Below are positions 35,255 through 58,116 of a stretch of 64,000 nt of DNA, piece after piece. Position 1 is the first letter of the stretch. Each line of letters begins with the position of its first letter. Origin of the DNA: Uloborus plumipes (lineage: Eukaryota > Arthropoda > Arachnida > Araneae > Uloboridae); NCBI GenBank assembly GCA_038373865.1, contig JAXGGA010001054.1:1-64000 (forward strand), in the 5' to 3' direction. The notes under the pieces are model-generated. The model saw only the letters and a program-made list of their open reading frames with translations, was not told where the DNA came from and did not search any database. The translations under genes were made by a program, and so were the position numbers.

Positions 35255-35764
35255 TACAGTCGACGCTCGATATAACGACCATCTCTTGTTCCATAAAAAA
35301 GTCCATATAACGAGTGGTCGCTATAAGAGGTAGAACAGGGTTATTGGGATAGAGTTCGCAGAGAGAACGTTGGGACTTTTTTCACTGGTCGTTAGGGAGT
35401 GGTCATTTATTATGGCCAAGGGGGGGGGCGGAAGCTAAGCTTCATTTTATGAAAAAATTACATGACCCCTCATCAAGCTGTCATATAATTTTCGTGACCC
35501 CTGTGGGAAATTCTAAATATTTTCATGACCCCCCCCCCTTAATTAACATTGCAAGATTTTTTTTTTTTTATTTTAATTTTTCAATCAGCCTGCAACTTTT
35601 TTCAGCTTATAGATCATAGCGTTGAAAGAACTAATAATAAATTTTATCTCTAACTAATACAAGTAAAATCAAAAACAAAAAAAAAATATTGTATGCATAT
35701 AAAAGAAATCCAATGAACATAAAACAAAAAATTGAAGCAACAAACTAATAGTGTCTCATTAGGC

Positions 35765-35945
35765 CAGGTGTAGCCAACTTTTTGGGAAGAGAGACACTAT
35801 GACTGCAACTATCAATTTCTCCAGCATACTGTACTAGTTATTAAGCAAGTTTTCATTTTTTTTTAAATTTTCAAAGTTTACATGGCACAGTTACTGCTTC
35901 AACTAACTGCATTGCAGCACGCATGCTACAAGTTGGGAATCTCTG
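35765..35945. mobile_element. possible hAT-like MITE
   Basis: The candidate ends are CAGGTGTAGCCAACTT and (inverted) CAGAGATTCCCAACTT. The 8-bp flanks (CATTAGGC, CATTTGAA) agree only in the first four bases. It is weak but lies in the non-coding part of the 4.4-kb transposon, where an insertion would be tolerated. Confidence 0.35.
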
Positions 35946-36392
35946 CATTTGAAAAAAGCACTAACTGATAAACTGTACATAATAAATCGAACCTTCAACC
36001 TGGAAATAAGAGCAGAGATCACAGAAGCCAATAGGCTCTTGGTTTTTTTTATAGGTTTAAGTTTCTTAATATGTTTCTAAAAATTTGTAGTATGCTTTCA
36101 GAAAACAATTAGTTGCATGCAAATTGTCACCATTGAATACATTTCAATGGAAAAAGATTTGTATTATTTTAAAATTATATTTAATGATAATGTTATTGAA
36201 TAAAATTTTTAGTCTGAAATCGTAAGAGAAATATTTTAGCAATTATAATTTAAGCAATTCAAAAAAACAGCCTATGAAAAATGCAATTTTTCTTTTACAC
36301 AACAGAAAAAACAAGACTTTTTAAAAAGCACCACGTACCTTAAGGAATGAGAAGAAGAATCTCTGTACCACACAATGGTCACCAAAAACTAT

Positions 36393-36983
36393 TTAACCTT
36401 TAGCCGACAGCCGATCCTTAACCTTTAACCGATTAACCTTTAGCCGATTATTTTTTAGTTGAATAACAATGGAGAAACAATATAAATTAAGTACACTTTT
36501 TGCAATAAATATGTTCAATAATAACTAAAATGGGTGTATTATTTCATTCAGAGTGAAAACAATCTAATTTATGACTTGAATTTGTCCTTATAGGCAGAGC
36601 CACCACTTTCCCCCACCATGGGGGAAAGTGGTGGCATGAAAACAAGCCTAATTAAATATATCACTGTAAACATACCATGCAGTAAAAAGTAAAATTACTG
36701 CAATAATTTTATTCTAAAATGTTCAAATGTAAGTATTATCAATAAAAGTATTTAAGAAAATAACTTTTTAATATCTTTAATTTTAAGTGTTGATTCAAAA
36801 GTGCCTGATTTATCCCACCACTTTCCCCCACCTGACCATACCACCTGTGTGAACGGATTATCAGTTCGAGGAGTAACAGAGTTGGGGTAGAAAAGCATGT
36901 ATAGATGCTAGTACCACAGGTGTAGCCAGAGAACACTTTTTTTTCTCAGTAACACATGTTTACCGCTGTCGGCTAAAGGTTAA
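36393..36983. mobile_element. piggyBac-like MITE nested in the 4.4-kb transposon
   Basis: TTAA stands at both edges (36393-36396, 36980-36983), bordering a perfect 15-bp inverted repeat, CCTTTAGCCGACAGC. Near the left end the phrase TTAACCTTTA(G/A)CCGA repeats several times. TTAA targeting with a CC(T/C) terminus is typical of piggyBac. Inside it, 36600-36838 carries the hairpin and right end of the GGTCAGGTG element family. The piggyBac-like unit therefore either contains that fragment or grew around it. Confidence 0.85.
36600..36838. mobile_element. right-end fragment of the GGTCAGGTG family with hairpin
   Basis: CCACCACTTTCCCCC (36601-36615) and GGGGGAAAGTGGTGG (36621-36635) form a perfect 15-bp stem with a 5-base loop. 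About 200 bp further, the same CCACCACTTTCCCCC precedes ACCTGACCATA, whose inverse (GGTCAGGTGGGGGAAAGTGG) resembles the left end of the element at 9959. The hairpin-to-end spacing is alike in the two copies. The left end is missing. Confidence 0.6.
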
Positions 36984-37014
36984 ACAATAACAGTCAAATA
37001 TGTTTTGTGTCAAA

Positions 37015-39606
37015 CTATATAAACTTAAATGTTTTCCAAGTCCCTGCTAATCGACCACTTCTAGTGTGGGTCTGAATCTCTTTCCCATAATCTTCTAAAC
37101 TTGCATCACTGTTATCATCATCAGAAGAGGAGTCATTGATAACTTTTAACACTTCATCATAATCGCTTTCTCCAGAATATTCATCGTTATCAGAGTCTGA
37201 CCATTCAGCGTTTTTTTCATTTGTAACTGGAACAGTAGGGAGTAAACTAGAAGCTATATGATTCTCGATAATTTTTAATTTTTGGGACTTAGAAAGTTTT
37301 ATACAGTGAACTAACCCATGATGGTCCAGGTATTTATTTAAAATATTAACGCGAAGTTGCCTCAACTCACGTTTTTCATAGAGATCGACCCAAGGAAACT
37401 CTCCATAATCCTTTTTACTCTCTTCTTCTTTTTGTTGTTCATTTGAAACCTGTTTCTTTTTTTGGAGAAAATCAGATTTTTTGAGTTTTTCGAGGTAAGT
37501 GGTCACAAATTGTTTTTCAACAATAAATTTTGTTGAAAAAGTTTCTACAAAGTTTGGATCTTCAACCTCACCTGCTGCAAAAGCTTTCTTCAATTGGATT
37601 CTTGGTTGAAAGTCATCCACACTCCTGAGTTTACCATTGATACACATTGGCGTGACCCTTACATTCATGTACTTAAAATTGGGCAATTTTGATGTGTCCG
37701 GCATAGGAGCAGGTATATGGCTTAGCTTTGGCCCGATAAAAGGGTATTTCGAGCAATAGGCACAAGAAAAACGTAATTTTATCACGCAGGACTCTTTAAC
37801 AAATTCCAAAAATTTTTCTCCTTTTCTAAAATGCAAATCCATAAAAGATTTTAATGCCTGAAAATATGATAGATCTTTCATTTTTTCTTTAAAATTTTCA
37901 CTATTAAAGAACTGATCGCATGTTTTTTTGGCAATAAAACCTTTTAAGTACCCTCCAGGGCCAGGAGCACCTTCTACACGTTCCGAAACTTCTTCGCAAA
38001 CACTTCTGGCATTGTTTTCGAATCTTTTGAGTTCACTGGCTTCTATTTCAGCCATTGTCAAATTTTTTGCATTTTCTTCATCGAATTTCTGTTTTTCCCA
38101 CTCAATTGTAGCACCATCAGCAATAGCATCTCCAACGTAACTTTGGGCTCTTTCAACTTCATTGCTACAATCACCTGGTGCCAAATGCAAACGAACATAA
38201 TAATCTAAATTTAAAATTTGAATACGCTCAGCAATTCGAAATTGCACTTCGTAATTACCAACACCAACTCCAGGTCCAGCATCTGTGAGTTCAATAAGCC
38301 TCGACTTATTTTGGGGAAGCTTAATTTCTAAGATTTTCTGCAAAACATCTTCACACATTTCAGAGGCATTTTTAATCTCATACGCAGGTTGCTGCAAATA
38401 TGTTATTAGAAAATCGAGGCTTTTAAGTACATCAAAAAGCAATTGCTTCTCATTCTCGTTTGATATCATGTCACTAGAAGTGATGTCCTCAGTAGCATTC
38501 CTGATGTAATTAGTAAAATTTTCAGTAATTTCCTTGGCAAATTCTTTTTCCTTTTGACTTTGAGTAGGGTTGTAATGTTGTAACATAATATGAAAATGCT
38601 GAATTTTATCCTTTACAAGATAACAAAAACCTCGAAAGGGAGCAGAAAGTAACACATCTGAATTATCAGAAACTTCAAATAGATGGGGCAACTCTTTTCG
38701 CATATCCATGTATTCACTAGCCCACACACTGCCTGTACTTCCAACAAAGAATTTTGGTCTTACATAAACTACTGTCTGTTCATCTATGGTCTTCAATTCT
38801 TCAACATTATTTATGGAAGTGATCTTTTTACTCATGAAACGATATGTTCCTGGTGTAACATTAACCATAGAGGTTGGAAAGTCATACTTAGTCAATTTTT
38901 TCTGCTTTTCTTCTTCAACAGGTTGAAATATCTTTTGGTTACGTATGCTGTGAAAACCTGTACTTGTTCCAGGACATAAATAGGCCTTGTCGTCAGCACT
39001 AACGAGAATGTTAAGTTTAGCAGTATCTGGATCATCATATTAACTAATTATGATGTTTTTTTTATGAGCTCTTTGATAATGTGTCAATTCATTATCATTA
39101 TTTTGCGTTTTGGGTGGTTTTTTTGTACAAAAAAGTCCAAGGCCAAGATGTCTACTTGCCTGTACACTTCTTACATTTTGTGCTCGAGCACGATTAAAAA
39201 CAGTTGTTGAAGATTTAATTGTTGGTAAACCTCTCTTGATCCGACTGAAATTTGCTACCTTTAAAAGATCTCTTTTTTTAATCGTATGATTTAAGTACAT
39301 CACAGGATCATGTCTTCTTCCGTGAGGGGTTGATTTGCTCTCTATGCACTGCAAAATAAAATTTTCATCAACTTCATCCAACATTTTTTTCCTACCCGCA
39401 CCTTTTTTCCTTAGACCAATACGATACTTCTTTATTAGTTGCTTATGCATTCTCTTAATCATTCTATTCTTTTTTATCTTGGCGGAATGTGTTTCAAAGC
39501 ATTGGATCTCTTTCATTTCTGCTTGACTCTCTTCCAGAACAAGTATATCTTCTTCCAGGTTTTGTAGTTGTTCAGGTGTCCAAAATCTACCTTGGACACT
39601 AAGCAT
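37015..39606 (-). pseudogene. DDE-type transposase (863 codon positions), one in-frame TAA
   Basis: Starting at the first ATG after the TIR (39606), the frame runs 188 codons to a TAA at 39040-39042. It then continues in the same frame for 674 codons to the stop at 37015-37017, so one stop separates two otherwise open parts. Part 1 is basic: GAGRKKMLDEVDENFILQCI, then HGRRHDPVMYLNH and ASRHLGLGLFCTKKPP, probably DNA-binding. Part 2 has ILVSADDKAYLCPG (first Asp, about 205), LIELTDAGPGVGVGNYEVQF (second Asp, about 442) and CSNEVERAQSYVGDA (Glu, about 485). This is a D..D..E order as in RNase H-fold transposases. Later come CAYCSKY, an acidic Asp/Ser tract and a terminal RSGRLAGTWK. I recognise these motifs from unnamed animal transposase-like proteins but cannot assign a formal superfamily. 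The TAA could be a recent null mutation or a sequencing error. Confidence 0.82.
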
Positions 39607-39768
39607 TGCTTTTTTTGAAGCAATGTTTTTCCCATTGTAATACAATGGGAAAGTTTTTATAATGAGCGGTCGTTATAACGAGCGTTGACGGTAGTAGTAA
39701 ATATATTACTTGTATACTTTCAAAGAACGTCTAACTTTTCGTTTTATCTTTTATTCAGAGTTACATAC

Positions 39769-39956
39769 AAACCCACAAGTGAACGATACCTCTGGGGGTG
39801 CCTGGGCCTAGGGTTTGCTCGACCCTAGGTTCTGGTTCAAAATTAAGAATAGAGCACTCTTCAGGGCCCTATCCCGGTTAAACCACGAAGCTGTGGTAGG
39901 TACGGGGGACCCTGGAGGTGTGAAATGAAATGAAATGAAATGAAACCCACAAGTGA
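39769..39956 (+). mobile_element. 5'-truncated SINE (family A) with 14-bp target duplication
   Basis: AAACCCACAAGTGA flanks both sides (39769-39782, 39943-39956). The body starts inside the SINE (cgatacctctgggggtgcc) and is about 95% like the 3' part of the full-length copy at 52422-52726. It ends in (TGAAA)n. Being truncated at the 5' end and flanked by a long duplication, it is a LINE-mobilised copy. It sits 77 bp right of the 4.4-kb transposon. Confidence 0.9.
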
Positions 39957-42419: not shown

Positions 42420-43013
42420 CAACGCCTCCTAAATACTAAATGCCTACAACTGTTTGGTTTTTAGCACAGAGCAAAATTTCGTCCTTGGTTCACGATACAC
42501 TGCCATCTACCGGAGTTCTTCGAGAAAGAGAAATTAACGATAGGTTCATTTCTAAATTTAAATTTAAAAATCAACCAATCAAAAAGTGTAATTCGAATAT
42601 TGTTTGTATCCAACGCCAATAGCTGCAAAATGCCCTTGGTTCACGTAACACTGCCAACTACCGGAGTTCTTTGAGAAATTAACGATTAGGTCATTTCTGA
42701 ATTTAAATTTAAAAATTAACCAATCAAAAAATAACAACGGCACTTTCGGATTGCCGCAAGGTAGCGCTTAACGTGGAACCAACGACGGCCGTAGCAAAAC
42801 AAATGTACTAAGCATTAAGTACAGTCGACGCTCGATATAACGACCGTCTCCGTCTTACAGAAAACGGTCTTTATAACGAGTGGTCGCTATAAGAGGTAGA
42901 ACATAGAGTATATTGGGATACAGTTGGGGGTTTTCTCACCGGTCGTTATATTAGGATGGTCTTCAAAACGTGTGGTCGTTATAACGAGCGTCGACTGTAT
43001 TTAGGAGGCGTTG
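42420..43013. mobile_element. MITE with CAACGCCTCCTAAATAC ends, split by a second MITE
   Basis: Left CAACGCCTCCTAAATACTAA and, after removing the inserted MITE, inverted right CAACGCCTCCTAAATACTTA match over about 30 bases. TATTAG occurs just outside both ends. The interior has an imperfect tandem duplication of about 151 bp (phrases 'ccttggttcacg' at 42483 and 42634; 'ctaccggagttctt' in both). Non-coding. Confidence 0.78.
42822..42997. mobile_element. 176-bp MITE of the CAGTCGACGCTCG transposon family
   Basis: TA-flanked (42820-42821, 42998-42999). The inverted repeats CAGTCGACGCTCGATATAAC and CAGTCGACGCTCGTTATAAC both continue GACC. Its left 100 bp is co-linear with the left end of the 4.4-kb element at 35257. 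It is therefore probably a deletion derivative mobilised by that element's transposase. It is inserted near the right end of the CAACGCC MITE. Confidence 0.9.
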
Positions 43014-57900: not shown

Positions 57901-58116
57901 TAACATAACACCCTCTTTTTTTCCAGAAGCCATCAGCTTCAACATACATGAGGACTGCGTGCTATGCGCTTTGCCTCCTGACAAATACAGGATAGATTTA
58001 CGGCACAGAAAGGATGAAGTAACATCCATGGGCAAGGCGGGATTCGAACCCGCGACCACTTGCTTACGAGGAGAGTACTCTACCTCTAGGCCCACGTGGC
58101 CCCCTAACATAACACC
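57901..58116 (-). mobile_element. tRNA-headed SINE (family B) with 12-bp target duplication
   Basis: TAACATAACACC flanks both sides (57901-57912, 58105-58116). Read on the minus strand from 58104, the head has an A box (gggcctagaggtagagta), an anticodon loop ctcgtaa (CGT, Thr-like) with a mismatched stem, and a good B box (ggttcgaatcc). The body is about 110 bp and ends in an A7-GAGGG tail. It differs from family A in body and tail. The damaged anticodon stem and the flanking duplication rule out a working tRNA gene. Confidence 0.9.

Follow-up and report, generated by a model that had tools for sequence, protein, structure and literature searches.

A young transposon with a large, apparently DDE-type transposase gene, very probably nested in a pogo-like MITE of the spider Uloborus plumipes

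Positions 35257-39691 of a 64,000-nucleotide stretch of Uloborus plumipes DNA (the window, part of contig C1054 in an assembly of 1.42 Gb and 25,906 contigs) very probably hold two nested DNA transposons, a gene-bearing element inside a pogo-like miniature inverted-repeat transposable element (MITE). The inner element belongs to a young and, judged from Pfam, NCBIfam and the literature, apparently unnamed family with TWA targets (W, A or T) and a large, unusual transposase that appears to be of the DDE type (named for catalytic residues D, D and E). A first-pass annotation of the window had described a single transposon bounded by CAGTCGACGCTCG ends and a complete source element for MITEs. We propose that a short pogo-like MITE with a TA target was the landing site, and that a second transposon, with terminal inverted repeats (TIRs) of ~44 bp reading GGGAGYGG... 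and the large transposase gene, inserted at a TTA within it. This second transposon would subsequently have lost its right end, together with the beginning of its gene, probably through a deletion that spared the right part of the MITE.

Ends and target sites of the two elements

The boundaries of the gene-bearing element emerged from comparison with its other copies. A genome search with the 674-amino acid transposase piece returned 16 matches on 12 contigs, the window included (84-100% identity in 15 matches, 42% in one), and the other eleven contigs were compared with the window. A left boundary at window positions 35391-35395 is common to 10 of these 11 loci, with matching sequence running inward from there; C2665 carries the right end only. 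This places the start of the gene-bearing element at 35395 instead of 35257, and the shared boundary rules out 35257-39691 as its limits. The left-end sequence recurs inverted at the far side of copies with 87-89% identity over ~36-47 bp, and the element is bounded by TIRs of ~44 bp beginning GGGAGYGGTCATTTATTATRGC. Exact 22-mers of each end occur 15 times apiece genome-wide, compared to none for reversed controls.

There are twelve two-ended copies (C518, C947, C3374, C4425, C4951, C5445, C10780, C11539, C18206, C19229, C21153 and C25293; two of them have a mismatch in the right 22-mer), and in all twelve the 3-bp flanks are identical: TTA or TAA in 11 and CTA in one. One-ended copies cannot show a target duplication. 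The single flank read in six of them is TWA in the window, C736, C2665, C22250 and C10442, and TTG in C115; the flank counts leave out C6624, C19490 and C19139. At C115:246215 (L059), a right-end TIR stands next to an arm that is only 71% identical, suggesting an older or different relative.

Joined flanks of seven copies were also searched against the available host sequence for empty sites. For C21153, the flanks joined through a single TTA find a 94% match in two uninterrupted repeats, straight across the junction, and for C25293, those joined through a single TAA find an 86% match in a neighbouring repeat. The joined flanks of C947 gave only 70-79% matches, in tandem surroundings of the C948 type, and were not used as an empty site; the remaining four copies gave no independent one. 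The first-pass annotation had proposed to look for empty TA sites; those found belong to the gene-bearing element and are at TTA and TAA. TIRs and a target duplication of fixed length, two general marks of DDE cut-and-paste elements, are both present in this family. The encoded protein presumably binds the GGGAG ends and mobilises the element in cut-and-paste fashion through its invariant D, D and E.

The outer repeat has a different character. The TA-flanked inverted repeats at 35257 and 39691 reported in the first-pass annotation are real: the left repeat, CAGTCGACGCTCGATATAACGACC, begins at 35257 with TA before it, and the right repeat, CCGTCAACGCTCGTTATAACGACC (read inward), ends at 39691 with TA after it and differs from the left at 3 of 24 positions. 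These repeats are far above chance, because CAGTCGACGCTCG has 2569 and 2566 matches genome-wide (5,135) compared to 1 and 1 for the reversed sequence. In the first 100 matches listed, many pairs are ~163 bp apart. Of 17 MITEs extracted from the available loci, 14 have TA on both sides, and 16 (leaving out one of 282 bp) were combined with the window's own copy into a 176-bp consensus. Window positions 35257-35394 align to this consensus from its first base through ...GGTCGTTA, and hence into the MITE interior, and ~39640-39691 aligns to its right end, the first ~10 bases being uncertain. Uninterrupted MITEs read GGTCG-TTA-TATTAGG at the site corresponding to the window insertion. The CAGTCGACGCTCG ends are thus parts of a MITE that merely flanks the gene, and do not belong to the gene as had been claimed.

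In its TA flanks, short length, TIR-bounded form and thousands of copies, the outer repeat resembles the pogo/Tigger MITEs of the IS630-Tc1-mariner group, and it is not the gene-carrying element. The CAGTCGACGCTCG ends themselves resemble those of pogo/Tigger. Pogo DDE_1 genes are numerous in the host genome (150 of 1162 candidates were scored, and 150/150 lay above the cut-off), and a pogo transposase presumably mobilises the CAGTCGACGCTCG MITEs. Outward-facing CAGTCGACGCTCG pairs ~1.35 kb apart were seen at C35:242637-244004 and C97:22195-23560, perhaps a single repeated block between two MITEs.

The features of the locus are as follows.

35257-35394, plus strand: left part of the MITE, proposed landing site of the second transposon (consensus alignment, TA before)
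35392-35394, no strand: TTA at the left end, 3-bp target site, right-hand copy lost or unrecognisable (identical flanks in 12/12 two-ended copies)
35395-35438, plus strand: left TIR, GGGAGTGGTCATTTATTATGGCC... (87-89% identity to inverted right ends elsewhere; 22-mer found 15 times)
35395-39630, minus strand: truncated TWA-target transposon, right end missing (shared left boundary; match to C518 stops at 39630)
36392-36984, no strand: 593-bp stretch inside the transposon with a perfect 20-bp inverted repeat (TTTAACCTTTAGCCGACAGC), both arms present in 8 of 11 other loci
37015-39042, minus strand: transposase downstream of an in-frame stop (TAA, 39040-39042), 674 codons
39043-39630, minus strand: transposase coding sequence upstream of the stop, with the N-terminus otherwise missing
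39640-39691, plus strand: right part of the MITE, TA after (consensus alignment, first ~10 bases uncertain)
42822-42997, plus strand: intact MITE of this family, flanked by TA at each end (alignment to the 176-bp consensus)

A truncated copy of a young family

A large minus-strand transposase gene had been reported between the repeats. The frame exists, with 870 codons and the motifs SADDKA, TDAGPGVG and NEVERA; it is a fragment, interrupted by one in-frame TAA. The N-terminus of relatives extends ~260 residues beyond the window frame (264 in P0004, 227-288 across P0003-P0006). A tblastn search of the whole window with relatives longer than 900 amino acids gave no match at E <0.1 outside 36900-39800; the extra N-terminal part was found nowhere in the window, and N-terminal exons outside 35257-39691 were rejected on this basis. 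Most of the missing N-terminus, starting at residue 72 of P0004, is encoded by the C518 copy in the reading frame of the window start. This coding sequence lies within the same TIRs, further in and ahead of the right TIR, and beyond 39630 C518 and the window no longer match. When the N-terminal piece of C518 was used as a genome query, matches were confined to C518 itself and, over the final part of the piece, the window. Because the window copy lacks its right end and ~260 N-terminal residues and carries a stop codon, it is not the complete source element that had been proposed.

Other copies are also rearranged. C4425 spans 7.8 kb between its ends and has frame breaks, with ~2.2 kb of other DNA in place of the N-terminal part. 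Staggered match starts had hinted at 5' truncation as in retrotransposons; this was rejected, since the copies with both ends have lost internal sequence between their TIRs. In aligned blocks of at least 150 bp, substitutions relative to the window lie between 0.17 and 0.66% at 10 loci and reach 6.4% at C10442. The low divergence in the 10 loci argues for recent activity, and these near-identical copies suggest that the gene-bearing family was active very recently. The 593-bp stretch at 36392-36984 may be part of the transposon family or an old insertion.

The transposase-like protein and its possible kin

Relatives of the encoded protein are distributed across animals and measure ~1,100-1,230 amino acids, 107 having been found at E ≤0.01 among 7,996 candidates scored. 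Among these relatives are proteins, uncharacterized or unnamed, from Ptychodera flava, Branchiostoma floridae, Mytilus edulis, Pocillopora meandrina, Oculina patagonica and Paramisgurnus dabryanus. A fragment with 75% identity, covering 8% of the query, lies inside a gene model of Uloborus diversus. Two named gene models contain pieces of the transposase family, P0106 (Uloborus diversus, mib1-like) and P0105 (Paramuricea clavata, TRPA1), and are probably chimeric predictions.

In the alignment of these proteins, D16 and D17 of P0001 (SADDKA) are each invariant in the 59 rows that have a letter there, and D253 (TDAGPG) and E296 (NEVER) are invariant in 73/73 rows, compared to 70/73 for E294. 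The proposed catalytic codons are as follows.

38992-38994, minus strand: proposed first catalytic D (SADDKA, D16 of P0001; 59/59 rows)
38281-38283, minus strand: proposed second catalytic D (TDAGPG, D253; 73/73 rows)
38152-38154, minus strand: proposed catalytic E (NEVER, E296; 73/73 rows)

AlphaFold models had a mean predicted local distance difference test of 79 for a relative of 1,138 amino acids and 83 for the window's 350-residue core. They place a strand at SADDKA, followed by two strands, a helix, a four-helix bundle, a strand at TDAGPG, a helix, a strand, and a helix at NEVER. From these models we infer a DDE core of the RNase H type in which four helices are inserted between the first and second acids. 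The insertion of hAT, RAG and piggyBac enzymes lies between the second and third catalytic acids.

Searches against named families brought no bridge. No Pfam transposase model matched the window protein or eight relatives, and none was among the 25 listed of the 35 families matched by the 21 members of alignment A1; in those 21, a PHD finger was found in two and SAP in two (best E 0.0015). NCBIfam returned nothing relevant for three members. A PDB sequence search gave weak matches only, some to SAP-like domains, and fold-search matches named VIA cover mainly the helical bundle. A profile of A1 gave 102 matches, 101 at E ≤1.7e-101 and one weak (P0106), none of them a bridge to any named family. 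In viral contigs, 31 stretches fit a pattern and none was confirmed. The view of the first-pass annotation that the protein is DDE-like and differs from pogo transposases agrees with the invariant acids, the AlphaFold model and the absence of a Pfam or NCBIfam transposase match. Of the profile and structure comparison it had proposed, the structural part yielded a DDE-like model; no named transposase appeared in profile matches or listed fold-search matches.

Target duplications of 3 bp are known for Harbinger, Zator/ISAzo13 and AcademX (PMC10045372, PMC12730594), the length being 3 bp in Zator/ISAzo13 and 3-4 bp in AcademX (PMC10045372). The gene's element lacks the TA target duplication of pogo and Tc1-mariner, its two-ended copies all having 3-bp flanks, and no DDE_1 or CENP-B-type match was among the Pfam families listed for the window protein or the 21 members. 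It shares the 3-bp TWA target of PIF/Harbinger (PHIS), 11 of 12 copies being TWA, but has a long distance between first and second acids, and neither a Harbinger transposase nor a Myb/SANT domain was among the Pfam families listed for the 21. AcademX, compared by description only, has a target duplication of similar length; no XPG nuclease domain was among those Pfam families.

The motifs hint at Zator/ISAzo13. Besides the 3-bp duplication, the two families share the motif order S-x-D-x-K-x5-G, D-F, D-x-G, H-x3-G-x-S-x2-N-x2-E and have similar distances from second acid to E, by hand count 43 in ISAzo13 and 43-44 in the gene-bearing family. ISAzo13 proteins have ~410 amino acids, whereas those of the gene-bearing family have ~1,150 and add the four-helix insertion, and PF07592 was not matched among the Pfam families listed for the 21 members. 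We assembled an ISAzo13 set by a motif search of bacterial and archaeal genomes; the 80 loci listed yielded 46 usable frames, and two were confirmed as PF07592. Against it, hhalign gave P=0.39, or P=0.099 with the insertion left out; column-shuffled templates reached the insertion-less score in 6 of 60 cases, and when the comparison was restricted to the DDE part, 42 of 60 did as well as the real template. A profile of the gene-bearing family failed to distinguish ISAzo13 proteins from 414 decoy frames (hmmsearch). With the ISAzo13 profile, family members held the first five places at scores near controls (best 4.3 compared to 2.4 bits). PF07592 had no match in the host genome, but 14 control genomes were silent too, so that this result is uninformative. 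Kinship with ISAzo13/Zator may be taken as a lead, hinted at by the motifs and statistically unsupported. A search of titles and abstract openings found no description of the gene-bearing family, and its motif strings were not found in the literature searched. The protein could define an undescribed animal-wide superfamily with TWA targets and a four-helix domain between first and second acids, perhaps a deep eukaryotic branch of ISAzo13/Zator; we put this forward tentatively, at slightly less than even chances.

Alternative readings and other observations

A single transposon at 35257-39691, bounded by CAGTCGACGCTCG and giving rise to the MITEs, would account for the inverted ends, the TA on both sides and the gene in between. 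In other copies, however, the boundary is at 35395 and the TIRs are different, with flanks of 3 bp; the left part of the locus fits the interior of the MITE, and the gene is truncated at the right. We give this reading almost no chance. The first-pass annotation had proposed a search for genome copies with both ends and the gene, and gene copies were found, but inside the GGGAG-type TIRs, the outcome it had itself named as refuting its proposal. The large protein might instead be a passenger gene of the GGGAG-ended element, in keeping with the lack of an intact copy, the many internally deleted copies that must move in trans, and a fold unconfirmed by fold search. We consider this quite improbable, given D, D and E that are invariant in a DDE-like motif context among aligned relatives, and a predicted order of strands and helices that fits an RNase H-type core; no systematic search for other genes between the TIRs was made.

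The nesting could be correct and the gene-bearing family already named in Repbase or Dfam, as Harbinger, Academ, Zator or unclassified DNA. Its 3-bp targets have the precedents cited above, relatives are present in well-studied animals, and our comparison covered Pfam and the literature, not Repbase or Dfam; the failure to match a Pfam transposase or to find the motif strings argues the other way. This is a serious contender, with a probability not far below one half. Several points weigh against the nested arrangement and its transposase as we describe them. No complete gene copy was found in the assembly, in searches that give lower bounds. The right junction, probably the product of a deletion, lacks a base-by-base explanation, and the MITE match to its right is short. 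The pairing of GGGAG ends with the transposase is known from the host genome only, no pogo gene was shown with CAGTCGACGCTCG ends (the ends of host DDE_1 genes were not read), and fold searches gave no transposase or RNase H name among the 50 matches listed in each.

If the family is unnamed, large "uncharacterized" proteins of acorn worm, lancelet and fish would be identified and assigned real ends and a rule for their targets. The locus also cautions that a gene and its nearest inverted repeats are not necessarily one element, since the true ends emerged only when copies were compared.

Elsewhere in the window, positions 58029-58101 on the minus strand have a transfer RNA-like match to Rfam RF00005 (33.3 bits, barely above the cut-off), and ARAGORN found none in the window. 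A repeat-rich, partly tandem region at 31533-33096 matches L055 and L056 at up to 88%. Just outside the nested locus, at 39776-39925, a repeat of ~150 bp is 85-88% like stretches of L053 and L057 and may be a short interspersed nuclear element.

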